Assembly: GCA_029861795.1 (NCBI GenBank)
Contig: JAOTYS010000201.1
Span: 1 to 8,158 of the forward strand
DNA from: Gammaproteobacteria bacterium
GTDB taxonomy: Bacteria > Pseudomonadota > Gammaproteobacteria > Arenicellales > JAOTYS01
Direction of reading: 5' to 3'
DNA: 8,158 nt
Part shown: positions 1 through 8,019 of the stretch, in pieces
How positions within the stretch are numbered: position 1 is the stretch's first letter
Layout of the letters: each line of letters begins with the position of its first letter
Made by a program: the position numbers and the translations under genes
Notes under the pieces: generated by a model
Databases searched by the model: none
Told to the model about the DNA's origin: nothing
What the model saw: only the letters and a program-made list of their open reading frames with translations

Positions 1-2434
1 ACAAACTGAATACGACCACATGCCGAGGAACGATCAGAGTATTTCGATCGATTGGGGTACAGATCTGAACGAGGGACGAACCAACGTTGGCATATTTGCG
101 AGGCGCTACAGCCGCGATCGCGTGCGGGCCAGTGACGAGAGTCGCTGGGCGAATTCCGATTTTCGTCATCGCTTTCCCCCGACTTCTCCTTACGCAGTAC
201 CGAATCCGCAGTCGCCTGCGGAGACCTCCACAGTGTTTCGAAATGACAGCGCGAACTCGCTGTTCGGACAGTTCGATGTCGTCAGCAGTCTCGGAAGCAG
301 TCATAGCCTGCGTGTAAACGATGTGGTCGACGCCGCAGGCGAGTTTGAAATCTACCCGACCGGCGATTCTCGCTGTGCCGGCGGTTTCGACACCGGGTAC
401 GGAACCTGCATGCATGAAGACGGACAGGGCACTATTCGATACAACTTTAATGCAAACCGTGACGTGATGGGTGAGGCTGATCGAACAACCATATTCGCCT
501 ACGTCAATCATGAAATGAACGAGGATCTCGAGTTTTTCAGCGACGTCTACTACTACGATTCGACGTCATCCCGAGATTTCGGTGCTTCCACGCCGCTGAC
601 CGCCGTGCCGCTGCGCGTTGGCGCCCAGAACTACTACAACCCGTTGGGTCCTTGCGGCTCACCGAACCGTTTACCAGATTCCATCATTGGTACGGATGTT
701 CCGTGTAGCGGGCTCGAATTGAGAATCGACAACTACCGGTTCGCAGAGAAAACGAGGGTCGTCGACAACAACGGTGATGCCTACCGGTTGCTGGCTGGAT
801 TTAGAGGCATCGCAGGCGACTGGGACTGGGAAACGGCAGCCATCATTTCGAAGGCAACCCGCGACGATATTACGCACAACAGGATATCGAATACGCTGAT
901 TACCGAAGCACTGTTTGATCCGACGCCGGCTGCGTATAACCCGTTCAGCGGCGGTGTTGATAGCAACATAGAACGTGCCTATATCGACGTTTACCGCAGG
1001 GGATCAACGACACTCAGATCTTTCGATGTCAAGTTTTCGAATCCAGAAATATTCGAAATGCCCGCTGGTCCCGCAGGAATGCTCATTGGAGCCGAAACAC
1101 GCCGGGAGGATTTCAGGGACGACCGTGATCCGCGACTTAACGGCACCATCGATTTTACTGACTTTGAAGGCGAGTCATACCCGTTGACTTCCGACGTCGT
1201 AAATTCGAGTCCGACTCCCGATAACGAGGGCGGTCGGTCAACGGTATCGTTTTTTGGGGAGCTGCAGTTACCATTGCACGAAACGATTGACGTGCAGCTG
1301 GCGGCGCGGTACGAGGACTTTAGTGATATCGGGGATACAACAGTAGGCAAATTTGCCATCGGCTGGCAGCCGCATGAGATGATCCTCTTGCGCGGTTCTG
1401 CGTCCACGGCGTTCCGCGCGCCAAACCTGATTACCATCAACGAAGGTTTTGTCGCACGATCAAATACGCGGGATGACTGGGTCTGCTTCTACGCCGTTGA
1501 TAATGGCACCCTTCCAGCAGACAACGACTTTTCTGATTGCGACTATGGTATGCAGCGACAGGCAACGGGTAGTAAGGGATTGGTGCCGGAAGAATCAATC
1601 AACTTGTCAGCTGGTTTCGTATTCGAACCGATTGAGAATCTGACCCTGACGTTCGACTACTGGTCGATTGAAAAAGAAGACACAATTGGATTGTTCGGCG
1701 AAGAGAATCATGTCCTGGTTGACCTCGTAACACGCCTCGAACAGGGTACGTCCAATTGTGCTGCCGTCGTTGGTCATCCGAACGTCGTCCGCGACACGCC
1801 GACAACCGATCCGGTAGAAATGCAGGGCTTCCTTGACGCCGGTCTGTGTCCAATCGGTTCAGTTCTCTTTGTATCCGATCAGTACGCGAACCTCGACACG
1901 CGCACGGTTGAGGGATTTGACGTTGGTTTGTACTACGACTTCGAAACCAGTTTCGGGTCGTTTGCCTTCAAATACAATGGTTCGTTCTACGAAAAGTACG
2001 AGCAGCAAGGAACCAGTGGTATTACCGCGTCTCTGATCGAGGCTAAAGCAGCGGATCCAACGATCGTTTACCCGATCGCAGGCATCGGAGACCTGCTGAA
2101 CCTGAATGGAAATCAGGAAAGCCGCATGACCGCCAGCCTCGCCTGGTACTTGTCCGATTGGTCGGTTGGCGTTTCGGCGAATCGCATTAGTAGTTTCCAT
2201 CAACTGCTGTCGAACGGTGATATTTTCCCGGTGCCGTCGATGACGACGTATAACGCGAAGTTTGATTACACCATGAACATCGCAGATGTTGATACGCGAG
2301 TTCGGCTCGGTGTCAACAACATCACTGACGAAAGGGCACCGCTCTATGACCGGTCATTCGGATACTCGGACGATGCTCACAGAGACTGGGGTCTCTATTA
2401 CTACCTGGACCTCAGGCTGGACTTCGGAGGCTAA
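1..2434 (+). CDS. TonB-dependent outer-membrane receptor, 5'-truncated by the window
   Basis: The reading frame is open from base 2 and has no stop before TAA at 2432, so the gene begins upstream; the ATG at 20 is internal. About 811 codons are visible, covering the barrel and perhaps the end of the plug. Alternating aromatic/polar beta-strand segments run throughout. A STAFRAPNL segment near codon 470 is typical of the TonB receptor barrel, and the protein ends on a final strand, LDLRLDF, as barrel proteins do. Four pairs of closely spaced cysteines lie in predicted extracellular loops and suggest disulfides. The family imports siderophores, vitamins, glycans or other ligands across the outer membrane using TonB energy; the substrate cannot be told here. 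It is convergent with the tRNA array and shares its terminator. Confidence 0.93.
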   Translation, partial: QTEYDHMPRNDQSISIDWGTDLNEGRTNVGIFARRYSRDRVRASDESRWANSDFRHRFPPTSPYAVPNPQSPAETSTVFRNDSANSLFGQFDVVSSLGSSHSLRVNDVVDAAGEFEIYPTGDSRCAGGFDTGYGTCMHEDGQGTIRYNFNANRDVMGEADRTTIFAYVNHEMNEDLEFFSDVYYYDSTSSRDFGASTPLTAVPLRVGAQNYYNPLGPCGSPNRLPDSIIGTDVPCSGLELRIDNYRFAEKTRVVDNNGDAYRLLAGFRGIAGDWDWETAAIISKATRDDITHNRISNTLITEALFDPTPAAYNPFSGGVDSNIERAYIDVYRRGSTTLRSFDVKFSNPEIFEMPAGPAGMLIGAETRREDFRDDRDPRLNGTIDFTDFEGESYPLTSDVVNSSPTPDNEGGRSTVSFFGELQLPLHETIDVQLAARYEDFSDIGDTTVGKFAIGWQPHEMILLRGSASTAFRAPNLITINEGFVARSNTRDDWVCFYAVDNGTLPADNDFSDCDYGMQRQATGSKGLVPEESINLSAGFVFEPIENLTLTFDYWSIEKEDTIGLFGEENHVLVDLVTRLEQGTSNCAAVVGHPNVVRDTPTTDPVEMQGFLDAGLCPIGSVLFVSDQYANLDTRTVEGFDVGLYYDFETSFGSFAFKYNGSFYEKYEQQGTSGITASLIEAKAADPTIVYPIAGIGDLLNLNGNQESRMTASLAWYLSDWSVGVSANRISSFHQLLSNGDIFPVPSMTTYNAKFDYTMNIADVDTRVRLGVNNITDERAPLYDRSFGYSDDAHRDWGLYYYLDLRLDFGG

Positions 2435-2456: not shown

Positions 2457-2485
2457 AAAAAAGGGGGCTTATGCCCCCTTTTTTT
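2457..2485. terminator. Bidirectional intrinsic terminator between receptor gene and tRNA array
   Basis: A GGGGGC/GCCCCC stem with a TTAT loop is flanked by six A on the left and seven T on the right, so it has a U-tract on both strands. It ends the receptor transcript and, in the other direction, the tRNA array transcript. A second hairpin, CGACGAA/TTCGTCG, lies at 2488-2508 on the array side. Confidence 0.92.
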
Positions 2486-2538: not shown

Positions 2539-2614
2539 TGGCCCGGCGCCCAGGACTTGAACCTGGATAACGAGATTCAAAGTCTCGCGTCTTTGCCGTT
2601 TAGACGAGCGCCGA
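2539..2614 (-). tRNA. tRNA-Gln(UUG), last tRNA of the array
   Basis: Cloverleaf with acceptor UCGGCGC/GCGCCGG (U1-G72), U8, a 4-bp D stem with GG in the loop, anticodon stem CGAGA/UCUCG and loop CUUUGAA (anticodon UUG, reads CAA). The T arm is CCAGG-UUCAAGU-CCUGG, then G73 and encoded CCA. The weak first pair and G73 agree with known glutaminyl identity elements. It is separated from the other tRNAs by about 400 nt of structured sequence. Confidence 0.93.
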
Positions 2615-2649
2615 ATTGGGAAACGGTCTGAACCATGTTCCTGGTCGCT

Positions 2650-2950
2650 TTAAAAAAAACGGTTGAGACTACGCCGTTTGTGATCGCCCTTTTGCCGGTG
2701 TACCCAACCCCTTGCCAGGGGTAGTTGCCGGCGTGTCCACCCGACCCCGCTTGCGGCGGCGACCGGGTCAGCGACCATGACTGCCTTTTTTAAGGTGTGG
2801 CGCTTCACCTGTACCATCGGTTTAATCGGCGACTTGTCTACCGTGAACCTTGCGGGCTCCAAACGGGGCGTCCCCGACCGTGCGACAAAATCGCTGAAGT
2901 TCTTCGGCTTGCGGCCTCCGAACCTCCACGTTCTTCTTGCGAAGCGTGGA
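2650..2950 (-). ncRNA. Candidate structured RNA with serial CGCAA-loop hairpins
   Basis: Successive stems can be drawn on the - strand: 2926-2949 (CCACG-CUUC-GCAA-GAAG-AA-CGUGG), 2897-2925 (GGC-CGCAA-GCC inside AGGUUC/GAACUU), 2882-2894 (GCGA/UCGC), 2864-2876 (CGGGG/CCCCG), 2845-2859 (GAGCC-CGCAA-GGUUC), 2784-2795 (CCUU/AAGG), 2739-2768 (CCGC-CGCAA-GCGG inside ACCCG/CGGGU) and 2694-2732 (GCCGG/CCGGC). Three loops are exactly CGCAA and a fourth is GCAA. It ends in a short hairpin followed by eight U (2652-2679). I do not recognise it: the RNase P, tmRNA and SRP signatures I know are absent. An overlapping frame encodes 113 basic residues (2650-2991), has no domain I recognise and no good ribosome site, and is probably fortuitous. 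The dense hairpins are seen; function is inference. Confidence 0.45.
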
Positions 2951-2998
2951 CTTAAGCCATTTTCTACCGATGCCGGAGCGCGTCTTGGCATTTTCTAG

Positions 2999-3072
2999 TG
3001 GTGTTTCCTGCCGGACTCGAACCGGCTTCTTTCACATTGCTGTGAACGCTCAACCGATAAGCTAAGGCACAA
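2999..3072 (-). pseudogene. Degenerate tRNA-like sequence, possibly Cys-like
   Basis: A good T arm (GCCGG-UUCGAGU-CCGGC), an encoded ACCA end and a normal D arm (GCU-UAUCGGUUG-AGC) are present. The 5' acceptor strand UGUGCCU pairs with AGGAAAC at only four positions. The anticodon stem UUCAC/GUGAA encloses a 6-nt loop, AGCAAU, lacking U33. Restoring one base would give GCA (Cys), but that is a guess. Most likely a decayed tRNA. Confidence 0.6.
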
Positions 3073-3417
3073 TTCCTACTGCGACGTGCGCGCTCCTGCA
3101 GCTTCGTTGCTTTTTGGGCAACGAAATACCGCACGCCGAATGTCGTTCCCCTGCCGGGTACTGAACCAGTGATCCGGATCATGACTGCACACCATGTCCC
3201 GAAACCCTTGCGCAACCGCACTCGCCTGCAAAGCTCGCACCTGGATGCACTACCTGTTATCTCTCACGATTTGCAACGTTAGTGTCACGGGTTACAGCAC
3301 TACCTGTTCTTTCGCGTTGCCCGCATTCCCGGTAAACCGGTACGTAAACAACGTTACTTCCGTGCGTTGCTGGTCTCGCTACTACCGGCCGTAACCGATA
3401 GCCAGGAGATCAGGCTT
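3073..3417. other. Gene-poor stretch inside the array
   Basis: I see no tRNA with pairing acceptor and T arms and no convincing reading frame. It holds a hairpin at 3103-3125 (TTCGTTGC/GCAACGAA), a perfect TGATCCGGATCA palindrome near 3171-3182, and a 14-base direct repeat GCACTACCTGTT(A/C)T near 3247 and 3297. It may be eroded tRNA or spacer DNA. Confidence 0.5.
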
Positions 3418-3537
3418 GCCTGGTTTGACCCGCGTGAGCGGGCGGGAAGTCGTAGGGTCTTCCCTTTCCCGTCGTTGCCGACGGTTAGCAGCGCCAGGCC
3501 GCAAATGTTGTACTTCAGCGAAGTGCAACAATTTTTT
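3418..3537 (+). ncRNA. Candidate + strand small RNA: three hairpins in a closed junction plus terminator
   Basis: GCCTGG (3418-3423) pairs with CCAGGC (3494-3499) and encloses three hairpins: CCCGC-GTGA-GCGGG (3429-3442), GGGAAG/CTTCCC (3444-3464) and CCGTCG-TTGC-CGACGG (3469-3484). A 10-bp stem and six T follow directly at 3507-3537, as an sRNA on the + strand would end. It could equally act on the - strand, where one loop reads as a GCAA tetraloop. I see no clear + strand promoter. Function unknown. Confidence 0.35.
3507..3537 (+). terminator. Intrinsic terminator on the + strand, antisense to the array
   Basis: GTTGTACTTC pairs with GAAGTGCAAC over 10 bp (one G-T) around an AGC loop, followed by AA and six T. 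Direction is opposite to the tRNAs. It ends on the first base of the TGG that encodes the Trp tRNA CCA. Confidence 0.65.
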
Positions 3538-3607
3538 GGCAGATCGTGTAGGTATCGAACCCACCTCATCAGGGTTGGAATCTGATTTGCTCCCTGAGCG
3601 ACGATCT
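3537..3607 (-). tRNA. tRNA-Trp(CCA) with a 3-nt D-loop
   Basis: Perfect acceptor AGAUCGU/ACGAUCU, G73 and encoded CCA. The D arm is reduced to GCUC-AGG-GAGC. The anticodon stem UCAGA/CCUGA (one A-C mismatch) holds loop UUCCAAC, giving CCA. The variable loop is 4 nt and the T arm is GUGGG-UUCGAUA-CCUAC. A1-U72 and G73 match known TrpRS identity elements. A 9-nt loop would expose UCC (Gly), but exact alignment with the His tRNA at 6127-6195, which has the same mini D arm, favours Trp. Confidence 0.75.
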
Positions 3608-3660
3608 AAGAAGAAATTCCATTTATGATTTCTAGACTGATGCCTGTTTCGGTTTTATTA

Positions 3661-3716
3661 CTAAAGATAAATCTGCACCTGCCAATGTGGAATTTCATGT
3701 CGCAAGTAGGCAGATT
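3661..3716 (-). repeat. 55-bp hairpin repeat, copy 1 (covarying stem)
   Basis: On the + strand it reads CTAAAGAT-AAATCTGC ... GCAGATTT and abuts the TGG encoding the CCA of tRNA-Ser(UGA). Relative to the other copies (AAATCCGC/GCGGATTT) both arms have changed, keeping the pair, which supports a selected stem. Confidence 0.8.
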
Positions 3717-3803
3717 TGGCAGAAGATAGAGGAGTCGAACCCCCACCGTTTCCAGCGCCCACGGGTTCAAACCGTGTTGCCAGCCAACCCAGCGGTATCT
3801 TCT
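3717..3803 (-). tRNA. tRNA-Ser(UGA)
   Basis: Class II tRNA. Acceptor AGAAGAU/AUCUUCU is perfect, with G73 and encoded CCA. Anticodon stem CACGG/CCGUG holds loop UUUGAAC, anticodon UGA. The long variable arm has a G-U-rich stem (CGCUG-GAAA-CGGU), as expected for Ser. The T arm is GGGGG-UUCGACU-CCUCU with G-U pairs. Confidence 0.9.
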
Positions 3804-3809
3804 GTTGTT

Positions 3810-3897
3810 TGGAGGAAGGCGTTCGACTCGAACGAAACACCTGGGCAGATGCGATCTGCTTAGCAAGCAGCCCCGGTCCCTGACCGGTTCACCTTCC
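3810..3897 (-). tRNA. tRNA-Ser(GCU) with extended D stem and 3-nt D-loop
   Basis: Acceptor GGAAGGU/GCCUUCC and encoded CCA. The D arm is CCGGUC-AGG-GACCGG, six pairs closed by a 3-nt loop. Anticodon loop UUGCUAA gives GCU, on a stem with four of five pairs. A long variable arm (CAGAU-CGC-AUCUG) is present, as Ser needs. The T loop is UUCGAGU. The discriminator is U rather than the usual G for Ser, so charging is less certain. Confidence 0.82.
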
Positions 3898-3908
3898 TGA
3901 AGAAACTT

Positions 3909-3973
3909 GAGAGCCTTTCATATACCACCCGTGCTTTAGCGCGCCTACGACACGGGACTGTTACTCGGCTCTC
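3909..3973 (-). other. Nested-stem spacer structure between Lys and Ser tRNAs
   Basis: GAGAGCC/GGCTCTC (7 bp) encloses CCCGTG/CACGGG (6 bp, 3928-3956). The outer stem is the length of a tRNA acceptor and the span is tRNA-sized. There is no T arm, anticodon loop or CCA, so it is either a wrecked tRNA or a distinct processing structure. Confidence 0.5.
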
Positions 3974-3978
3974 ATGAC

Positions 3979-4054
3979 TGGTCCCTCCGCAGGGATTTGA
4001 ACCCTGACCAAACAGATTAAAAGTCTGTTGTGCTACGCGTTACACCACGGAGGA
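3979..4054 (-). tRNA. tRNA-Lys(UUU)
   Basis: Acceptor UCCUCCG/CGGAGGG (U1-G72), U8, D arm GUGU-AACGCGUA-GCAC, anticodon stem ACAGA/UCUGU with loop CUUUUAA (UUU), T arm CAGGG-UUCAAAU-CCCUG, A73 and encoded CCA. Close in sequence to the Lys(CUU) gene at 4714-4790, so the two probably arose by duplication. Confidence 0.95.
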
Positions 4055-4142
4055 AAATCTCTTTTGTACTGTTTCCTAAATCAAATTCACAATCTCCTTT
4101 TGCACGCACCGTACTGGCGATAGCGAACTGATTTTCATTGCT

Positions 4143-4196
4143 CTAAAGATAAATCCGCAATTACCAAAGCATTAATACTGGAATTGCAGGCGGATT
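4143..4196 (-). repeat. 55-bp hairpin repeat, copy 2
   Basis: CTAAAGAT-AAATCCGC ... GCGGATTT, abutting the CCA of tRNA-Arg(UCG). The inner arms (AATTCCA against TGGTAATT on the - strand) also pair, so the transcript folds as a long imperfect hairpin. Confidence 0.82.
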
Positions 4197-4270
4197 TGGC
4201 ACCCCCGGTAGGATTCGAACCCACAAAGCCCGGCTTCGAAGGCCGAGCGGCTTCCACTTGCCACGGAGGC
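4197..4270 (-). tRNA. tRNA-Arg(UCG)
   Basis: Acceptor GCCUCCG/CGGGGGU (two G-U pairs), U8, 3-bp D stem GGC-AAGUGGAA-GCC, anticodon stem UCGGC/GCCGG with loop CUUCGAA (UCG), T arm GUGGG-UUCGAAU-CCUAC, G73 and encoded CCA. Its build resembles the Arg(UCU) gene at 5363-5436. Confidence 0.92.
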
Positions 4271-4300
4271 GAAAATCAATACGTACTATGATTTCTTGTA

Positions 4301-4354
4301 CTAAAGATAAATCCGCAACTGCCAACAGATTTTTTCTGGCACTGCGGGCGGATT
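4301..4354 (-). repeat. 55-bp hairpin repeat, copy 3
   Basis: CTAAAGAT-AAATCCGC ... GCGGATTT, abutting the CCA of tRNA-Ile(UAU). The inner stem TGCCA/TGGCA differs in sequence from copy 2 but still pairs. Confidence 0.82.
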
Positions 4355-4430
4355 TGGTCGTCCCGGTGAGAATCGAACTCACTTCAGACGGCATATAAGA
4401 CCGCTGCCTACACCATTCAGCCACGGGACA
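4355..4430 (-). tRNA. tRNA-Ile(UAU), reads AUA directly
   Basis: Acceptor UGUCCCG/CGGGACG (U1-G72), U8, D stem GCUG/CAGC, anticodon stem GCGGU/GCCGU (two G-U pairs) with loop CUUAUAU, anticodon UAU. T arm GUGAG-UUCGAUU-CUCAC, A73, encoded CCA. Most bacteria read AUA with a CAU tRNA modified to lysidine by TilS; a UAU anticodon is the rarer route and needs no TilS. Confidence 0.88.
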
Positions 4431-4431
4431 T

Positions 4432-4506
4432 TGGCGCAAGGTGATGGTATCGAACCACCCTCCGCTGGGCTTCAACCAGCTGCTAATCCGTCTCAGCTAA
4501 CCTTGC
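4432..4506 (-). tRNA. tRNA-Phe(GAA)
   Basis: Perfect acceptor GCAAGGU/ACCUUGC, D arm GCU-GAGACGGAUU-AGC, anticodon stem GCUGG/CCAGC with loop UUGAAGC (GAA, with G rather than A at position 37), T arm GGUGG-UUCGAUA-CCAUC, G73 and encoded CCA. Only 1 nt separates it from tRNA-Ile. Phe usually has A73, so G73 and G37 are unusual. Confidence 0.88.
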
Positions 4507-4525
4507 AATAGTTTGTGCCCAGGCC

Positions 4526-4547
4526 CCATTGTGCTTTTTGACAATGG
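4526..4547. other. Spacer hairpin upstream of tRNA-Phe
   Basis: CCATTGT/ACAATGG, 7 bp with an 8-nt T-rich loop, in the spacer between Leu(UAG) and Phe. Possibly a processing or stability element; no terminator U-tract. Confidence 0.45.
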
Positions 4548-4580
4548 CACACTGCCAAATGCGGACTGGCGAGTACTGCA

Positions 4581-4634
4581 CTAAATGTAAATCCGCAATT
4601 ACCCGGATACCGCTATTGGCACCGCGGGCGGATT
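4581..4634 (-). repeat. 55-bp hairpin repeat, copy 4
   Basis: CTAAATGT-AAATCCGC ... GCGGATTT, abutting the CCA of tRNA-Leu(UAG). The outer stem is identical to copies 2 and 3; the interior has drifted. Confidence 0.8.
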
Positions 4635-4712
4635 TGGTACCGACGATAGGAGTCGAACCTATACTGAACGGGGTCTAAGCCCGCTGCCTCTGCCAAGTTG
4701 GGCTACGTCGGC
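4635..4712 (-). tRNA. tRNA-Leu(UAG) without a long variable arm
   Basis: Acceptor GCCGACG/CGUCGGU, U8, D arm GCCC-AACUUGGCAGA-GGC, anticodon stem GCGGG/CCCGU with loop CUUAGAC (UAG, reads CUA), a variable loop of only 5 nt (UCAGU), T arm AUAGG-UUCGACU-CCUAU, A73, encoded CCA. Bacterial Leu tRNAs are normally class II; this one is class I in shape. A73 is a known leucine identity base. Confidence 0.87.
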
Positions 4713-4713
4713 G

Positions 4714-4790
4714 TGGTCCCCCCGCAGGGATTCGAACCCTGACCTAACAGATTAAGAGACTGTTGTGCTGCACGATTACACCACGGAGGA
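4714..4790 (-). tRNA. tRNA-Lys(CUU)
   Basis: Acceptor UCCUCCG/CGGGGGG, D arm GUGU/GCAC with GUG in the loop, anticodon stem ACAGU/UCUGU (last pair U-U) with loop CUCUUAA (CUU), T arm CAGGG-UUCGAAU-CCCUG, A73, encoded CCA. One nucleotide separates it from tRNA-Leu(UAG). Confidence 0.92.
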
Positions 4791-4800
4791 ATTATTCATT

Positions 4801-4878
4801 TGGTACCGACGGTAGGGGTCGAACCTACACTGTACGAATTTTAAGTCCGTTGCCTCTACCAGGTTGGGCTACGTCGGC
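4801..4878 (-). tRNA. tRNA-Leu(UAA) without a long variable arm
   Basis: Paralog of the Leu(UAG) gene, sharing acceptor GCCGACG/CGUCGGU and the same D arm form. The anticodon stem ACGGA/UUCGU holds loop CUUAAAA (UAA, reads UUA). The variable loop is 5 nt (ACAGU), the T arm GUAGG-UUCGACC-CCUAC, then A73 and CCA. Confidence 0.87.
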
Positions 4879-5031
4879 TATTTCACGATTTCAAGTCTCG
4901 TAGTCGTGAACAATTACAATTAAATTGATGCTAGCTTCAACTAGACTAGAAAATCTAAATTTGGGGGACGGAATTGAATCGGGATTGCATGCACGTCGCT
5001 TGTGCCGTGTTCTTTTACTGTAAGCCCGTGA
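4879..5031 (-). pseudogene. Spacer with probable tRNA remnant after the HNH gene
   Basis: Directly after the HNH stop, about 4966-5039 starts GGGGUUAG and ends CCGUCCCCCA, with a T-loop-like UUCAAUU. The T stem and full acceptor do not pair, so at best it is a decayed tRNA overlapping the gene end. A 7-bp hairpin, TTCACGA/TCGTGAA, lies at 4882-4910. The rest is AT-rich with nothing recognisable. Confidence 0.35.
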
Positions 5032-5361
5032 CTAACCCCGACTCCTACGCTTGAAAGTTCTGATCCTATGGCAATTTGAACAAACAATGTCGCACTTGGC
5101 GATTTCAGTATCTACGGCTTTTCGTGATCTTGTCCACGCTGCGGCAAGATTGAAAAACTTCTCTTCACTTGGTAGATGGTCAAAGTCCATGCAATATGGA
5201 GGAAATGTCCCACCGCAATCCTTGCATGGAGTCTTCTTGAGCTCGTTCAAGTAGGCCCGGTGCTTGTCTATACGCTTACGCACGAGGATTCGTTTTTTCT
5301 CTTTATTTCGGTTATACCACCGCGTCTGATGTTTCCGATTTAATACAGGGTTTTTCGACAA
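5032..5361 (-). CDS. Small HNH endonuclease inside the tRNA array
   Basis: 109 residues, start TTG. A basic N-terminal half (about residues 1-40, rich in K/R) precedes a zinc-knuckle HNH: CKDCGG near residue 46, the catalytic-type DFDH near 59-62, then CSNCH near 94-98. These two CxxC pairs and the D-H pair define the HNH nuclease fold. Small stand-alone HNH proteins of this kind act as homing or nicking enzymes and are common beside phage tRNA clusters. The TTG lies 1 nt past the CCA of tRNA-Arg(UCU), and the GAGGGAG of the tRNA acceptor strand would serve as ribosome site. No in-frame ATG gives a better start. Domain call is firm; the target site is unknown. Confidence 0.9.
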   Translation of the reverse strand: MSKNPVLNRKHQTRWYNRNKEKKRILVRKRIDKHRAYLNELKKTPCKDCGGTFPPYCMDFDHLPSEEKFFNLAAAWTRSRKAVDTEIAKCDIVCSNCHRIRTFKRRSRG

Positions 5362-5362
5362 T

Positions 5363-5436
5363 TGGCTCCCTCGGAAAGATTCGAACTCTCAAAGGCGGTG
5401 GTAGAAACACCGCTGGCTTCCAATAGCCACGAGGGA
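5363..5436 (-). tRNA. tRNA-Arg(UCU)
   Basis: Acceptor UCCCUCG/CGAGGGA perfect, U8, D arm GGC-UAUUGGAA-GCC, anticodon stem CGGUG/CACCG with loop UUUCUAC (UCU, reads AGA/AGG), T arm GAGAG-UUCGAAU-CUUUC, G73, encoded CCA. Its 3' acceptor strand doubles as the likely Shine-Dalgarno of the HNH gene. Confidence 0.93.
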
Positions 5437-5495
5437 AAAGTAGCTCAGAACAGGTGAAATATCTCCATACATATCTGGGCAGAACATTCAAAAAT

Positions 5496-5570
5496 TGGTG
5501 CTCAACGGAGGTAACGCTCCCCCTTCTCCGGGTTACAAAGCCGGTGCATCACTATTAATGCTTGTCGAGC
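5496..5570 (-). tRNA. tRNA-Thr(UGU) with non-canonical T-loop and D-loop
   Basis: Acceptor GCUCGAC/GUUGAGC, A73, encoded CCA. D arm GCAU-UAAUAGUG-AUGC lacks the GG pair. Anticodon stem CCGGC/CCCGG (one C-C mismatch) with loop UUUGUAA, anticodon UGU. The T arm GGGGG/CCUCC has loop AGCGUUA instead of UUCRANN. G1-C72 and C2-G71 match known ThrRS identity pairs. No nucleotides separate it from the CCA of tRNA-Gly. Confidence 0.83.
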
Positions 5571-5645
5571 TGGAGCGTCGTACGGGATTTGCACCCGTGC
5601 CTCTACATTGGCAACGTAGCGTGCCGCTGACAACACCTACAACGC
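5571..5645 (-). tRNA. tRNA-Gly(GCC) with non-canonical T-loop and D-loop
   Basis: Acceptor GCGUUGU/ACGACGC, U73, encoded CCA. D arm GUGU-UGUCAGCG-GCAC lacks GG. Anticodon stem CUACG/UGUAG with loop UUGCCAA (GCC). The T arm ACGGG/CCCGU has loop UGCAAAU. U73 agrees with bacterial glycine identity. Confidence 0.87.
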
Positions 5646-5651
5646 ATTGTT

Positions 5652-5676
5652 TGGTCCTGGTAGTTGGATTGAACGC
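5652..5676 (-). pseudogene. 3' fragment of a tRNA cut off by an inverted hairpin repeat
   Basis: The - strand ends CCAAC-UACCAGG-A-CCA, nearly the same as the 3' end of the tRNA-like gene at 5811-5890 (CCAAC-CGCCAGG-A-CCA), with a T-loop-like GUUCAAU. No matching acceptor 5' strand or T-stem 5' strand exists. The copy 5 hairpin repeat occupies the place where the rest of the tRNA should be. Confidence 0.6.
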
Positions 5677-5731
5677 AATCCGCCCTCCGCTCCGGACGAA
5701 CGTGTTCCGTCAAGTGCGGATTGATCTTTAG
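5677..5731 (+). repeat. 55-bp hairpin repeat, copy 5, inverted
   Basis: On the - strand this reads CTAAAGATCAATCCGC ... GCGGATT, the form the other four copies have on the + strand. It is therefore in the opposite orientation, with the same length and the same outer pairing AATCCGC/GCGGATT. It adjoins a truncated tRNA end. Confidence 0.72.
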
Positions 5732-5810
5732 TGCAATGAACGCCAGCCCGTAATTGCTTTTGCCGCGATCTCGTACATGTAGAAGAACTTCGTATACATC
5801 AGTATATTTT
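5732..5810. other. Spacer without recognisable features
   Basis: Spacer between the inverted repeat and the tRNA-like gene at 5811. I see no tRNA arms, frame or strong hairpin. Confidence 0.5.
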
Positions 5811-5890
5811 TGGTCCTGGCGGTTGGATTCGAACCAACATGCAACCACTTAGCCTTTCGACCGCGTATCAGGCGGAGGGCATACACCAGA
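5811..5890 (-). tRNA. Atypical tRNA-like gene, best loop GAU (Ile?)
   Basis: Acceptor UCUGGUG/CGCCAGG (7 pairs with G-U), T arm GUUGG-UUCGAAU-CCAAC perfect, A73 and encoded CCA. The 45 nt in between do not fold as a normal D plus anticodon arm. The best hairpin is CCGC-CUGAUAC-GCGG, an anticodon-like loop with GAU, which leaves almost no D arm and a 21-nt variable region. It could be a D-armless Ile tRNA, or a tRNA scrambled by rearrangement. Identity is uncertain. Confidence 0.55.
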
Positions 5891-5892
5891 GT

Positions 5893-5963
5893 TGGTTGCG
5901 AGTACGGGTAATGCTCCCGTCTGGTCAGGCTTATGAGGCCCTACTGATCCTTGATCACTCGCG
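5893..5963 (-). tRNA. Initiator tRNA-fMet(CAU) with minimal D arm
   Basis: CGCGAGU pairs with ACUCGCA except at 1-72, where C faces A. That unpaired C1xA72 is the hallmark allowing formylation and excluding elongation in bacterial initiators. The anticodon loop CUCAUAA gives CAU. G-C pairs close the loop (GGC/GCC rather than the usual GGG/CCC). The D arm is GAUC-AAG-GAUC with a 3-nt loop. The T arm ACGGG/CCCGU has loop AGCAUUA. A73 and CCA are encoded; 71 nt in all. Confidence 0.8.
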
Positions 5964-5969
5964 ATTGAT

Positions 5970-6045
5970 TGGTCTCCCCAGGTGGATTCGAACCACCATC
6001 TTCCGGCTCCGAACCGGAAACTCTGCCAGGTTGAGCTATAGAGAG
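5970..6045 (-). tRNA. tRNA-Pro(CGG)
   Basis: Acceptor CUCUCUA/UGGGGAG (two U-G), U8, D arm with GG in the loop, anticodon stem UCCGG/CCGGA with loop UUCGGAG (CGG), T arm GGUGG-UUCGAAU-CCACC, A73, encoded CCA. The only proline tRNA visible; as CGG it should read mainly CCG, which is odd for a minimal set. Confidence 0.88.
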
Positions 6046-6051
6046 AGAAAT

Positions 6052-6125
6052 TGGAGAAGCGGGTCGGAATCGCACCGACGTTTACTGGGTTGCAGCCAGT
6101 CGCATATCTACTTTGCTACCGCTTC
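6052..6125 (-). tRNA. tRNA-Cys(GCA) with altered T-loop and D-loop
   Basis: Perfect acceptor GAAGCGG/CCGCUUC, U8, D arm GCA-AAGUAGAUA-UGC without GG, anticodon stem ACUGG/CCAGU with loop CUGCAAC (GCA), T arm GUCGG/CCGAC with loop UGCGAUU, U73 and encoded CCA. U73 is the main cysteine identity base. Its 5' end directly follows the partial CCA of tRNA-His on the + coordinate axis. Confidence 0.9.
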
Positions 6126-6126
6126 G

Positions 6127-6195
6127 GGGTGAGGTGCGGACTCGAACCGCTGAGTGCAGGGTCACAGCCTGACTAGCCCCCTGGGCAACCTCAAC
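6127..6195 (-). tRNA. tRNA-His(GUG) with 3-nt D-loop and no full CCA
   Basis: GUUGAGG pairs with CCUCACC with one mismatch. The discriminator is C, the histidine hallmark, and the first G can serve as G-1. The D arm is GCCC-AGG-GGGC. Anticodon stem UCAGG/CCUGC (one mismatch) holds loop CUGUGAC (GUG). The T loop is UUCGAGU on a 4-bp stem. After C73 only one more C (6126) precedes the Cys tRNA start, so CCA must be finished by nucleotidyltransferase. Confidence 0.82.
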
Positions 6196-6201
6196 ATAAT
6201 T

Positions 6202-6284
6202 TGGTACCGGTGGAGGGATTTGAACCCCCATGCCTTTTGGCGCTAGCTTCTGAAACTAGTGTGTATGCGTTCCACCACACCGGC
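6202..6284 (-). tRNA. tRNA-Leu(CAG), class II
   Basis: Acceptor GCCGGUG/CACCGGU, anticodon stem CUAGU/GCUAG with loop UUCAGAA (CAG), variable arm GCC-AAAA-GGC, T arm GGGGG-UUCAAAU-CCCUC, A73, encoded CCA. Unlike the two other Leu genes here, it keeps the long variable arm. Confidence 0.93.
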
Positions 6285-6285
6285 G

Positions 6286-6363
6286 TGGTACAGGTGACGG
6301 GACTTGAACCCGTATCTCCGAGATTGAAAGTCTCGTGTTCTATGCCGATTAAACTACACCTGC
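6286..6363 (-). tRNA. tRNA-Glu(UUC)
   Basis: Acceptor GCAGGUG/CACCUGU, U8, D arm GUU/AAC with GG in the loop, anticodon stem CGAGA/UCUCG with loop CUUUCAA (UUC), T arm ACGGG-UUCAAGU-CCCGU, A73, encoded CCA. Its anticodon stem equals that of tRNA-Gln(UUG) at the far end of the array. Confidence 0.93.
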
Positions 6364-6370
6364 TCGGATT

Positions 6371-6446
6371 TGGTGGAGGATCGCGGTAACGCTCCGCGCA
6401 GACAGTCACCTTGCAAAAGTAACCCGCTTTTCCTTGAGCATCCCCC
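6371..6446 (-). tRNA. tRNA-Ala(UGC) with non-canonical T-loop, G3:U70 kept
   Basis: Acceptor GGGGGAU/AUCCUCC places a G-U pair exactly at 3-70, the alanine identity element. A73, encoded CCA. D arm GCU-CAAGGAAA-AGC. Anticodon stem UUACU/GGUGA with loop UUUGCAA (UGC). The T arm CGCGG/CCGCG has loop AGCGUUA, the same as tRNA-Thr. Confidence 0.88.
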
Positions 6447-6582
6447 TTCGTTTGCGCGTAACCGACCATCAAGTAGATGGGGTTTCGATTGAATACGAAT
6501 CGTCTAGCGCATTTGTTTGCTTGGACGCTAAAGGTAATCTCGCAACTATCATTTGCGAACCTTTCAGCGTCACCTGCGAGCT
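6447..6582. other. Spacer with 48-nt imperfect palindrome
   Basis: No tRNA or gene seen. A hairpin at 6524-6571 pairs GACGCT-AAAGGT-CGCAA with TTGCG-ACCTTT-AGCGTC around a 7-nt loop. Without a T-tract it is not a terminator; it may be an RNase III-type processing site or a small mobile repeat. Confidence 0.6.
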
Positions 6583-6655
6583 TGGTACCTCGTCAGTGAA
6601 TTGAACACTGCCACCCTTCCTTGTAAAAGACGGTTGCGGACCCAGCGCCCGAGGC
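6583..6655 (-). tRNA. tRNA-Val(UAC)
   Basis: Acceptor GCCUCGG/ACGAGGU with a G-A mismatch at 7-66, D arm GCG-CUGGGUC-CGC, anticodon stem CGUCU/GGAAG (one mismatch) with loop UUUACAA (UAC), T arm CAGUG-UUCAAUU-CACUG, A73, encoded CCA. Several imperfect pairs make it a little less certain than its neighbours. Confidence 0.8.
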
Positions 6656-6662
6656 GAAATTT

Positions 6663-6738
6663 TGGCGGCCCTACGGGGTTTCGATCCCCGTCCTGCTGTT
6701 CGACAGACAGCCATGCTAGCCATTGACACCACAGAGCC
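6663..6738 (-). tRNA. tRNA-Asp(GUC)
   Basis: Acceptor GGCUCUG/UAGGGCC (two G-U), U8, D arm GUGU-CAAUGGCUA-GCAU, anticodon stem GCUGU/ACAGC with loop CUGUCGA (GUC), T arm CGGGG/CCCCG with loop AUCGAAA (A in place of U54), G73, encoded CCA. G73 is an aspartate identity base. Confidence 0.92.
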
Positions 6739-6739
6739 T

Positions 6740-6816
6740 TGGCTCCGGCTGCAGGAATCGAACCTGCCGCATGCGGATTAACAGTCCGCTCCCCGCGCCA
6801 TGCGGGGCCAACCGGA
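6740..6816 (-). tRNA. tRNA-Asn(GUU) with extended D stem
   Basis: Acceptor UCCGGUU/AGCCGGA, a 6-bp D stem CCCCGC/GCGGGG around a short AUGGC loop, anticodon stem GCGGA/UCCGC with loop CUGUUAA (GUU), T arm GCAGG-UUCGAUU-CCUGC, G73, encoded CCA. One nucleotide from tRNA-Asp and one from tRNA-Tyr. Confidence 0.93.
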
Positions 6817-6817
6817 T

Positions 6818-6900
6818 TGGTGGAGAGAGATGGAATTGAACCACCAAGCTCTAGGAGCACCGGTTTACAGCCGGCTTGTCTCGCCGTTGACAGTCTCTCC
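6818..6900 (-). tRNA. tRNA-Tyr(GUA), first tRNA of the array
   Basis: Perfect acceptor GGAGAGA/UCUCUCC, D arm GUC-AACGGCGA-GAC, anticodon stem GCCGG/CCGGU with loop CUGUAAA (GUA), class II variable arm GCUC-CUA-GAGC, T arm GGUGG-UUCAAUU-CCAUC, A73, encoded CCA. A long variable arm is normal for bacterial Tyr. Confidence 0.95.
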
Positions 6901-6916
6901 AGGTTTGAGCACATGC

Positions 6917-6951
6917 ATCGCGGCTGAAGCCGCTCCCACGGCCACCGCGAT
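6917..6951 (-). repeat. REP-like palindromic element in the array leader
   Basis: The - strand carries GTGGGAGCGGCTTCAGCCGC followed by GAT. It resembles a REP family that, from memory, is abundant in Pseudomonas and Xanthomonadales intergenic DNA. GCGGCT/AGCCGC forms the core hairpin, and ATCGCGG/CCGCGAT (6917-6923, 6945-6951) can close it. Confidence 0.65.
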
Positions 6952-6961
6952 ACTTCCACTC

Positions 6962-7004
6962 CAGGAAGGTAGCGCGGTGCACTCAGCACCACGCCTCCTT
7001 CCTG
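6962..7004 (-). other. Long leader hairpin upstream of the first tRNA
   Basis: CAGGAAGG/CCTTCCTG (8 bp) continues through GCG/CGC and GGTGC/GCACC to an ACTCA loop, a 43-nt nearly continuous hairpin. It touches the leader copy of the array-flanking inverted repeat, so it is placed as a processing structure would be. No U-tract follows on the - strand. Confidence 0.7.
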
Positions 7005-7022
7005 TATCAACAAATCCACATT
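7003..7022. repeat. Array-flanking inverted repeat, leader copy
   Basis: Reverse complement matches 2516-2535 at 19/20 positions, with the exception giving G-U in RNA. The two copies enclose all tRNA genes. It overlaps the end of the boxA-like motif. Confidence 0.7.
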
Positions 7023-7047
7023 GTTAAAGAACAATGCCAACCGTCAA
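7020..7047 (-). promoter_or_regulatory. Candidate array promoter overlapping a boxA-like motif
   Basis: On the - strand TTGACG (7042-7047) lies 16 nt upstream of AACAAT (7020-7025). The same stretch contains TGTTCTTTAACA (7022-7033), close to the rrn boxA antitermination sequence TGCTCTTTAACA as I remember it. Both cannot act at once: boxA must be transcribed. A weaker upstream alternative, TTGTGC (7068-7073) and TATGCT (7047-7052) with 15-nt spacing, would place boxA in the transcript. Confidence 0.45.
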
Positions 7048-7051
7048 GCAT

Positions 7052-7089
7052 AAAAAAACCCCGGTTGGCACAAGCCAAGCGGGGTTTTT
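7052..7089. terminator. Bidirectional intrinsic terminator between repressor gene and array
   Basis: CCCCG-G-TTGGC / GCCAA-G-CGGGG with an ACAA loop, flanked by seven A and five T. On the - strand the U-tract is seven long, so it should stop repressor transcripts before the tRNA array and isolate the array's expression. Confidence 0.92.
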
Positions 7090-7398
7090 CCATTCCCGAA
7101 AGGCTTGCCGATAAGCGCCTCCCGGTAATGTTGGAAGACACTCAGGTCATGAGCACCTCTTCACTGGCGACCATGACAAAATCGTTGCGGCCGCGATGCG
7201 ATATCGCAGGCCAAACGAATCCGCACAGATACGCATCTCGACCTGCTGGCCAGCGCGTCTCTGTTTGAGCGACAGCATATTTTTGTCTGTTTCTAATCAT
7301 GGCGGGCGAGTTTACTCATCCAATTTTAAATGTCAATATCGAATTTACTTTGTCTATTGGTAATTGACGACTGTGTCACAAAAAGGTTCCACTTTCGC
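7090..7398. other. Non-coding stretch downstream of the repressor gene
   Basis: No convincing frame on either strand. It contains a perfect 12-bp palindrome TGCGATATCGCA at 7197-7208. The AT-rich part at 7320-7380 has GTCAA (7332-7336) and TTGAC (7364-7368), the same half-sites as the repressor operator near 8062. A recombination site could lie here, but I see no duplicate to support it. Confidence 0.5.
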
Positions 7399-8019
7399 TC
7401 AGTTTTTTTCCGGCAGCGTCTTAAGTAAAGTAATGAACGCAGATCGTTGACGATCATCGAGTGCCAGTGATGCGGCCATCAGTTCCAGGGTGTCAGATAG
7501 CCGCTGTTGATTTGACTGGCGTCCCACGCCCTCTGGCGGCGTGTCGAGCCAGCCAATTGGCTGATCCGCGGCGGTCTCCAGCGCCCGCGCCAGCCTGTCC
7601 GATACAGGACGCACAAATGGATACTCTCTATGAAACTCAAGTTCATCCAGCGCAACGCCAGCCGCGTTTAGCGTCCTTTTCGAAGGCCAGGCCTTGCTTG
7701 GTCCTCGAAACAAGGATCGGAGACGAAGCTGTCTTGTTATCTGGTTGATCGGATCACTCGCAAACATCGGGCCTTTACCGAACAAAATCCAGCCAGCTGC
7801 GAAACCGGTCACATCTGCAATGGCTTCCACGATTGTCAAATTCGGGTTTTGCGATTCAACGGATTCGTACCGATGTAACAACTGTTTTGATACATCGATG
7901 CGCCGCTTCTTCAGCTCGGCGCGCAGTGCCTGTGGTTCAATTCCCTGTGATTCCCGCGCATACCGAATGCGCGATGCCATCGTGTTATGCGCGCGACGTC
8001 GCGTATTTTTCTTTGTCAT
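7399..8019 (-). CDS. XRE-family (CI-like) transcriptional repressor without peptidase domain
   Basis: 206 residues. Residues about 14-75 form an XRE helix-turn-helix (SRIRYARESQGI ... LLHRYES ... IADVTGFAAGWILFGKGP), the layout of phage repressors including the GW-L-G-GP end. The C-terminal half has no S24 LexA-type protease signature. Instead, residues about 135-165 (DRLARALETAADQPIGWLDTPP) echo the end of the first domain and may be a second, degenerate HTH. The family binds operators as dimers and controls lysogeny or transfer genes. TATACT at 8026-8031 ends 6 nt from the ATG, which would give a leaderless mRNA as for lambda cI from PRM. No ribosome site is seen. It is divergent from the gene at 8100. 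Confidence 0.88.
   Translation of the reverse strand: MTKKNTRRRAHNTMASRIRYARESQGIEPQALRAELKKRRIDVSKQLLHRYESVESQNPNLTIVEAIADVTGFAAGWILFGKGPMFASDPINQITRQLRLRSLFRGPSKAWPSKRTLNAAGVALDELEFHREYPFVRPVSDRLARALETAADQPIGWLDTPPEGVGRQSNQQRLSDTLELMAASLALDDRQRSAFITLLKTLPEKN

Follow-up and report, generated by a model that had tools for sequence, protein, structure and literature searches.

The window analysed here is an entire contig of 8,158 bp (JAOTYS010000201.1, assembly GCA_029861795.1) from an uncultured gammaproteobacterium, and the ends of any element surrounding it lie outside this view. Its centre is occupied by a compact array of tRNA genes, interspersed with a GOLLD-like RNA and an HNH endonuclease-like gene, and flanked by the genes of a TonB-dependent receptor and of a helix-turn-helix (HTH) regulator of the XRE type. 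ARAGORN recognised 20 tRNA genes between 6900 and 2539, every one of them on the minus strand, and 15 of these were also listed by the Rfam tRNA model at its cut-off; with laxer filters, the Rfam search added the stretches 5570-5499 (30.7 bits) and 3070-3002 (30.2 bits), which both exceed the 29-bit cut-off, while 3607-3540 stayed under it with 21.9 bits. Five more tRNAs, namely Ala-TGC, fMet-CAT, Thr-TGT, Trp-CCA and Val-TAC, were supported by folding and by descriptor and T-arm scans. This gives a total of 25 tRNA genes for the 20 amino acids and the initiator, with the CCA end encoded in 24 of the 25; the least sure of them is Val-TAC at 6655-6583 (z -0.44 in the folding test).

Read along the minus strand, the array begins with tRNA-Asn(GTT) and tRNA-Tyr(GTA) at 6740-6900 (ARAGORN), followed by tRNA-Asp(GTC) at 6663-6738 (ARAGORN; T-loop ATCGAAA with A54 and A58, D-loop with GG), the tRNA-Val(TAC) already mentioned, tRNA-Ala(TGC) at 6371-6446 (fold and scan; T-loop AGCGTTA), tRNA-Leu(CAG) and tRNA-Glu(TTC) at 6202-6363 (ARAGORN and Rfam), and tRNA-His(GTG) at 6126-6196 (ARAGORN, as 6126-6195; T-loop TTCGAGT), in which CCA is not encoded. 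Then come tRNA-Cys(GCA) at 6052-6125 (ARAGORN; G55, T-loop TGCGATT, AG in the D-loop), tRNA-Pro(CGG) at 5970-6045 (ARAGORN and Rfam) and an initiator-type tRNA-fMet(CAT) at 5893-5963 (fold and scan; T-loop AGCATTA, 3-nt D-loop AAG). A degenerate tRNA-like piece at 5811-5891, with a TTCGAAT T-arm and CCA but a predicted fold that is no cloverleaf, and a tRNA 3' fragment at 5655-5764, recognised by eye and cut near the T-loop, separate the latter from tRNA-Gly(GCC) at 5571-5645 (ARAGORN; G55, T-loop TGCAAAT, AG in the D-loop) and tRNA-Thr(TGT) at 5496-5570 (fold and scan; T-loop AGCGTTA, AG and not GG in the D-loop). The series continues with tRNA-Arg(TCT) at 5363-5436 (ARAGORN), the HNH gene, tRNA-Leu(TAG), tRNA-Lys(CTT) and tRNA-Leu(TAA) at 4635-4878, tRNA-Ile(TAT) and tRNA-Phe(GAA) at 4355-4506, tRNA-Arg(TCG) at 4197-4270 and tRNA-Lys(TTT) at 3979-4054 (all by ARAGORN and Rfam), tRNA-Ser(TGA) and tRNA-Ser(GCT) at 3717-3897 (ARAGORN), tRNA-Trp(CCA) at 3537-3607 (fold, and the 21.9-bit Rfam match), the GOLLD-like RNA and, as the last gene, tRNA-Gln(TTG) at 2539-2614 (ARAGORN, Rfam 53 bits).

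An earlier, sequence-only reading of this DNA had described 26 tRNAs on a single strand, forming a compact array for all 20 amino acids plus the initiator fMet and a self-sufficient decoding set. The existence of the array, its amino acid coverage and its single strand were borne out, and most of the genes were accepted by the tRNA predictors (20 by ARAGORN, 15 at the Rfam cut-off); the count, instead, is 25 and not 26, and what was taken for an additional gene may be either the tRNA-like insert of the GOLLD match or the degenerate stretch around 5891-5811. The idea of self-sufficiency had to be abandoned. In fact, 19 sense codons are without a reader by strict wobble and 7 with superwobble, these being CCT, CCC, CCA, ATT, ATC, GGA and GGG, which remain without a reader even when U34 is allowed to decode all four codons of a box; TAT for Ile, CGG for Pro and GCC for Gly are the sole anticodons in the array for these amino acids. 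With at least 20 clustered genes for most amino acids, the array corresponds to what is called a tRNA array unit.

An unusual character of the array is the elbow of some of its tRNAs. The canonical elbow is held by U54-A58, G18-U55 and G19-C56 (PMC7912444). The T-loop start TTC is missing in 6 of the 25 window tRNAs, which depart in this from the canonical elbow: Thr, Ala and fMet carry the loop AGCRTTA, Cys and Gly start with TGC, and Asp with ATC. In the first five of these base 55 is G, and in the three AGCRTTA tRNAs A54-U58 also takes the place of U54-A58. Since U55 and G18 are gone, pseudouridine at 55 and 2'-O-methylguanosine at 18 are impossible in the tRNAs with G55 and A18, as is ribothymidine at 54 in the AGCRTTA tRNAs, which have lost U54. 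Identity features are retained, such as G3:U70 in tRNA-Ala(TGC) and the unpaired C1xA72 mismatch in tRNA-fMet(CAT). Bases 8-47 of the 75 of tRNA-Thr are 92.5% like the tRNA-Thr of Pakpunavirus phages, and the window was alone in having a tRNA with AGCRTTA among the 137 records scanned.

A scan of viral sequences with the pattern GGAGCGTTACC-N11-CCA returned at least 120 stretches, which were selected by their AGCGTTA loop. Among the matches listed, a loose descriptor recognised 139 AGCRTTA tRNAs in 110 of the 120 viral loci, while parsing into cloverleafs gave 119 in the 120 listed loci and 3 in the window; six permuted loops gave none in the same loci. ARAGORN recovered only 33 of these 119 variants, against 658 of 686 canonical tRNAs. 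The elbow was then compared in strict cloverleafs, with 7/7 acceptor, 5/5 anticodon-stem and 5/5 T-stem pairs, a D-stem of at least 3 pairs, CCA, G53-C61 and C56, a filter which drops many real tRNAs and keeps 13 of the window's 25. The tRNAs so obtained were labelled by bases 54, 55, 56 and 58, and split into those with and without GG in the D-loop. When base 55 is not G, GG is nearly always present (with/without GG: TTC-A 531/6, ATC-T 34/0, ATC-A 21/0, and 3/0 each for TCC-A, GTC-G and CTC-A). By contrast, it is mostly absent from the G55 forms (AGC-T 1/48, TGC-A 5/17, GGC-G 1/14, CGC-A 0/4, CGC-C 0/1, TGC-T 0/1).

The change at position 55 is accompanied by a defined change in the D-loop. 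Among 693 unique strict cloverleafs, those with G55 have AG in 84 cases, GG in 7 and another sequence in 1, whereas those with T or C at 55 have GG in 595, AG in 4 and another sequence in 2. Leaving aside the selected loop AGCGTTA, GG was missing in 47 of 53 G55 tRNAs and in 6 of 601 others (Fisher 3e-58). The same partition was observed at the level of 489 sequence clusters, with AG in 73, GG in 7 and other in 1 for G55, and GG in 414, AG in 4 and other in 2 for the rest. Moreover, five clusters contain both forms and in these the D-loop changes along with base 55; in one of them TTCAATT goes with ATGG, ATCGTTA with AAGG and AGCGTTA with AAAG in the D-loop, which looks like a stepwise change. 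Two further samples, from which loci already in the set were excluded, gave similar results. In the first, collected by the canonical pattern and hence unselected for G55 (117 of 120 stretches used), 268 strict tRNAs were found in 83 loci, and GG was missing in 5/5 G55 tRNAs, all with AG, and in 1/263 of the others. In the second, collected by the loop TGCGATT (112 of 120 stretches used, 27 with strict tRNAs), 13 G55 tRNAs had AG and 2 had GG, the others having GG in 107 of 107; without the selected loop, 5 of 6 G55 tRNAs lacked GG.

The variants also retain identity elements of several isotypes. In those parsed loosely, the discriminator base was C in 6/7 His, G in 6/7 Asn, G in 7/7 Trp and T in 3/3 Cys tRNAs, and G3:U70 was kept in 2/2 Ala tRNAs. 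Two of eight stretches from named phages (L261-L264, L273-L276) contained a G55 tRNA: Pseudomonas phage ventosus has an unannotated AGCGTTA tRNA, with two acceptor-stem mismatches by eye, and Ochrobactrum phage vB_OspM_OC has a G55 tRNA-Ala, whose D-loop TAGG the simple test scores as GG. A54-U58 occurs together with U55 and GG in Pakpunavirus Ab08 and Curtobacterium phage Yappy, and no loop other than TTC was present in the 11 parsed tRNAs of phage T5. Across 274 genomes of Gammaproteobacteria, AGCRTTA with closing GG/CC was no commoner than expected from the control, with 8 matches compared to 5 for the reversed pattern, and a tRNA scan found no tRNA at these 8 loci; the canonical-loop version of the pattern gave 13-26 matches per genome in three genomes. 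Three single variant tRNAs had no match by blastn against phages. We found no description of the swapped elbow in the papers searched, older and subscription papers being outside this search. As a separate observation, one viral array with 8 strict G55 tRNAs (L191) also encodes a transfer-messenger RNA (tmRNA) at 7094-7530 (100.2 bits, cut-off 47).

Near the 3' end of the array, a lower-threshold Rfam search revealed a full-length match to the GOLLD RNA (RF02032) at 3141-2660 on the minus strand, with 138.9 bits, an E value of 1.4e-37 and the model covered from 1 to 416 of 416; we call it GOLLD-like because this score is lower than the curated cut-off of 150 bits. It has the conserved 3' region in full, followed by a T run, as well as adjacent tRNAs and a tRNA-like insert at 3002-3070 (minus strand; the 30.2-bit Rfam tRNA match), whose predicted fold is not a cloverleaf. 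There may also be a 5' domain that extends in the direction of 3535. One GOLLD RNA is reported to form a 14-subunit cage (PMC12286853). GOLLD above cut-off was absent from nine viral loci and from L071 by Rfam, and from 12 loci with variant tRNAs; a GOLLD motif was matched by 32 stretches of viral contigs, in which ARAGORN detected at most 3 tRNAs and, in one, a tmRNA.

The array is enclosed in a frame similar to that of rRNA operons. Upstream of the first tRNA, at 7033-7020 on the minus strand, lies the boxA-like sequence TGTTCTTTAACAAT, which matches 13 of 14 bases of the E. coli rrn boxA consensus and which runs into the leader strand of a long helix. This helix consists of 22 contiguous pairs, G-U allowed, between a leader strand at 7022-7001 and a trailer strand at 2537-2516, directly 3' of the last tRNA (both on the minus strand), whereas 2000 shuffles reached at most 18. 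The leader between the helix strand and the array (6901-7000, minus strand) is predicted to form two strong hairpins (-56.9 kcal/mol, z -5.1, 0/200 shuffles equally stable). One of them resembles a repetitive extragenic palindromic (REP) sequence, and GTGGGAGCGGCTTCAGCCGCGATG at 6937-6915 is similar to those of pseudomonads and xanthomonads. A terminator, a 12-pair hairpin with a T run, is found at the 3' end of the array (2457-2484, minus strand), and a terminator-like hairpin just upstream of boxA (7054-7089, minus strand), an inverted repeat with 16-nt arms that are 94% complementary, a 4-nt loop and a T run, which is missing from the terminator-scan list. The only match to a sigma-54 promoter is at the contig edge. 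The frame was compared in 51 arrays for which both flanks were available and ARAGORN gave at least 8 tRNAs on a single strand: a helix of at least 15 bp was present in the window only, while 6 arrays, the window included, have in the 300 nt upstream a boxA-like site with no more than 2 of 12 bases mismatched. In E. coli, a leader-trailer helix longer than 17 bp is critical for the production of active 30S subunits, and boxA is the key element in the recruitment of Nus factors (PMC10250234). The window has both features, although its helix encloses tRNAs and GOLLD and not rRNA, and boxA overlaps the start of the helix, whereas in the rrn operons of Enterobacteriaceae usually 18-19 nt separate boxA and boxC (PMC10250234).

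The HNH endonuclease-like gene inside the array (5032-5361, minus strand) matches phrog_3106 (E 9.7e-28) and has no Pfam match; such a gene is common, though not universal, in tRNA array units. Its relatives lie near viral tRNA arrays: of 70 viral loci retrieved, 28 were scanned, and 7 of these had at least 7 tRNAs. On its 3' side, the stretch 5045-4960 has GGGG...CCCC ends and a T-arm-like part and is possibly a tRNA relic. A hairpin repeat recurs in the array, with four direct copies on the minus strand after tRNA-Leu (4580-4637), tRNA-Ile (4299-4357), tRNA-Arg (4141-4199) and tRNA-Ser (3659-3719), and one inverted copy, detected as inverted repeats, which abuts the tRNA fragment near 5655. 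The outer stem is of 8 bp with one compensatory pair among the five copies (C-G to U-A, in the copy after tRNA-Ser); with this single pair and a covariation term of only +0.12 for the whole fold, the structural support is modest. The tail of the repeat, GCGGATTTATCTTTAG, was present in 23 viral stretches, which is near chance by a rough estimate. The 81-nt gap at 3978-3898, between tRNA-Lys and tRNA-Ser, has GAGAGCC...GGCTCTC arms around an inner hairpin and is possibly a small structured RNA.

Both neighbours of the array resemble chromosomal genes. The convergent one (2-2434, plus strand) is the 3' part of a TonB-dependent receptor gene (PF00593, E 1.1e-26) whose start is off the contig; it is 75% identical to receptors of about 1000 aa on contigs up to 5.0 Mb, its relatives at 61-65% identity are named Woeseiaceae, and it was not found in two genomes of the order of genome G001. 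The upstream one (7399-8019, minus strand) encodes the XRE/HTH regulator (HTH_31 22.5 bits, cut-off 27; phrog_4, E 5.8e-8). It has 13 relatives, 12 of them with 66-95% identity over 92-100% of the query and one short piece, and no close relative in IMG/VR; in the alignment search of 369 genomes 9 had a match, only that of G001 being near full length. A relative at 51% identity, in a metagenome-assembled genome of Chromatiales, is surrounded by ordinary genes, with no tRNA at the Rfam cut-off in the 20.6-kb locus. With these 13 relatives, none close in IMG/VR and no tRNA at that cut-off in the Chromatiales locus, the regulator looks more like one of the host lineage than like the CI-like repressor of a mobile element that the sequence-only reading had seen in it. 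From the relatives of both proteins, the host is probably a gammaproteobacterium and the flanks look chromosomal: the receptor gene probably belongs to the host chromosome and the regulator is probably a host gene. No integrase or conjugation gene was recognised within the 8,158 bases. The likeness to arrays of large phages and mobile elements, also proposed in that reading, is upheld by the HNH gene, its relatives near viral arrays and the GOLLD match, but not by the neighbours.

The closest counterparts we know of are the tRNA array units of Mycobacterium, in which a cluster of some 30 tRNAs serves almost all amino acids and includes the rare Ile-TAT (PMC6582537, PMC5966550, PMC12803027), together with an HNH gene and a GOLLD RNA containing a pseudo-tRNA (PMC6582537). 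The window too has clustered tRNAs, Ile-TAT, HNH and a GOLLD-like RNA with a tRNA-like insert, but it is gammaproteobacterial and has the boxA-like leader and the leader-trailer helix and, as a possible further difference, the G55 elbow tRNAs. The clusters of large phages (Pakpunavirus, T5, mycobacteriophage C1) are similar for the tRNA set and, in T5 and others, for the HNH genes, and differ from the window in its chromosomal-looking neighbours and, for T5, in the T-loops. We also observed that the T5 record (L276) has stable RNAs beside the tRNAs, at 4285-4645, 6839-7084, 7878-7950 and 14849-15567, some tRNA-like and one of 719 nt. ICEAfe1, an integrative and conjugative element (ICE) of Acidithiobacillus ferrooxidans, carries another extra tRNA set of proteobacteria. 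Among phages and plasmids the array had no close relative: the matches were to one or two tRNAs only and, in the records listed, covered at most 3% of the query (20 listed of 38 phage records; 2 plasmid records). In tRNA-Pyl and mitochondrial tRNAs, G18 G19 and/or TpsiC are missing together (PMC7609411); like these, the window class is without the usual elbow, but G19 and C56 stay, the 18-55 and 54-58 partners are exchanged, and many isotypes are involved. A tRNA array unit with GOLLD and HNH is known; new are the rRNA-operon-like frame and a swapped elbow that the papers searched do not describe.

On the whole, we consider it fairly probable that the locus is a phage-type unit, expressed as one antiterminated, helix-closed RNA that supplies spare tRNAs, some of them of a swapped-elbow G55 class. 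That viral arrays hold an unrecognised class of working tRNAs, with A18-G55 and, independently, A-U, A-A, G-G or C-A at 54-58, and with G19-C56 kept, which entered this bacterium in an rRNA-operon-like GOLLD array, seems to us only slightly favoured by the data. Several observations weigh against these views. The 120 viral loci were chosen by the AGCGTTA loop, which weakens the permuted-loop controls, and kinship among the sequences exaggerates the strength of the P values. In L198, one of the mixed clusters, C and not A precedes G19; the D-loops of window Ala and fMet score as GG, owing to AAGG, and these two tRNAs, like the Ala of vB_OspM_OC, are compatible with A18-G19 only on condition that the G which follows belongs to the stem or is G20. 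The anticodon stem of window tRNA-Thr pairs in 4 of 5 positions, variant Phe tRNAs have discriminator A in 3/5 cases compared to 20/21 of the canonical ones, and variant CAT tRNAs are mixed at 1:72. The GOLLD match misses its curated cut-off. As to the frame, the helix was not found in the other 50 arrays, and when up to 3 mismatches were allowed the search for boxA gave 2 sites, with a mean of 0.63 in shuffles and 33/200 of them reaching 2, so that the case for boxA is made by the one-mismatch site and its position. This site is only about 20 nt past the terminator-like hairpin with no convincing promoter between them, and the promoter scan showed no excess (4 found, 4.1 expected).

The array could alternatively be the cargo of a mobile element, such as a prophage, an ICE or a phage-plasmid, with its ends outside the 8-kb contig. 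Such arrays are in fact known on phages, plasmids and chromosomes of mycobacteria (PMC6582537, PMC5966550, PMC12803027), and GOLLD is described as being encoded in phages and prophages (PMC12286853); on the contig, however, no integrase, conjugation or structural gene was recognised and the neighbours resemble chromosomal genes, so that we hold this only as a tentative possibility. The host-like aspect of both neighbours would agree, instead, with a chromosomal tRNA cluster of the host lineage for stress or RNA repair, of the RtcB/slipin type and not derived from phages, and the gammaproteobacterial genome G244, whose TonB receptor is 54% identical, has RtcB, tRNAs, SPFH/Band_7, tRNAs and HNH. 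This G244 array (L277) resembles RNA-repair operons. Nevertheless, neither RtcB nor SPFH was recognised among the genes of the 8158-base contig, and the G244 array has TTC in the T-loops of 12/12 tRNAs checked (of 13 by ARAGORN) and no GOLLD match at E 0.01, unlike the window with its GOLLD match, its HNH gene of phage type and its G55 tRNAs, which makes this origin rather unlikely. Besides the HNH gene, a weak similarity to tmRNA (17 bits against a cut-off of 47) was noted in the G244 array (contig C148, 11-4946).

If, on the other hand, the tRNAs with odd T-loops were decayed pseudogenes or chance folds, the degenerate aspect of Val, of the piece at 5891-5811 and of one fragment would be expected, as would the low recovery of the variants by ARAGORN (33/119). 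The compensated changes in the D-loop, the identity elements kept in several isotypes, the CCA ends, the repeated occurrence in viral arrays and the absence of the six permuted loops from the same loci make such decay very improbable. Even less credit can be given to the array being the cell's main tRNA set: all 20 amino acids and the initiator are covered, but the seven codons unread with superwobble speak against it.

According to the phage-type reading that we prefer, a unit of 25 tRNAs, GOLLD-like RNA and HNH gene would reside in the genome of an uncultured gammaproteobacterium. The array would most likely be transcribed as one long RNA, sustained by the boxA antitermination signal; like the transcript of an rRNA operon, this RNA would be closed by the leader-trailer helix of 22 bp, and its processing would release the tRNAs and GOLLD. 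The most likely role of the array is that of a reserve which replaces normal tRNAs lost by cleavage or depletion, a role already proposed for the tRNA clusters of phages; the idea draws on the proposal that phage tRNAs with changes in the anticodon loop avoid nucleases (PMC10264068) and on PMC11555353. The sequence itself shows the genes, the similarities to GOLLD and boxA, the complementarity of the helix strands and the covariation of bases 18 and 55, whereas transcription, processing, the geometry of the new pair and the function are inferred from it. Thr, Ala, fMet, Cys and Gly would belong to the viral-array class in which an A18-G55 contact replaces G18-U55. The swapped-elbow tRNAs may thereby evade those host enzymes or nucleases for which the standard elbow is the recognition feature, since the substrates of TruB and TrmH are gone and, in the A54 forms, that of TrmA too.

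The TpsiC loop with its G18 G19 contact is generally regarded as near-universal, and tRNA finders rely on both; our results suggest that too few tRNAs are being counted in phage genomes. Natural tRNAs with co-changed 18/55 and 54/58 offer a direct way to ask about the role of the elbow and of its modifications, and open the question whether phages alter the elbow to avoid host factors. Finally, the frame of boxA and leader-trailer helix provides a testable idea of how a 4.4-kb untranslated RNA of tRNAs and GOLLD could be made without Rho termination.

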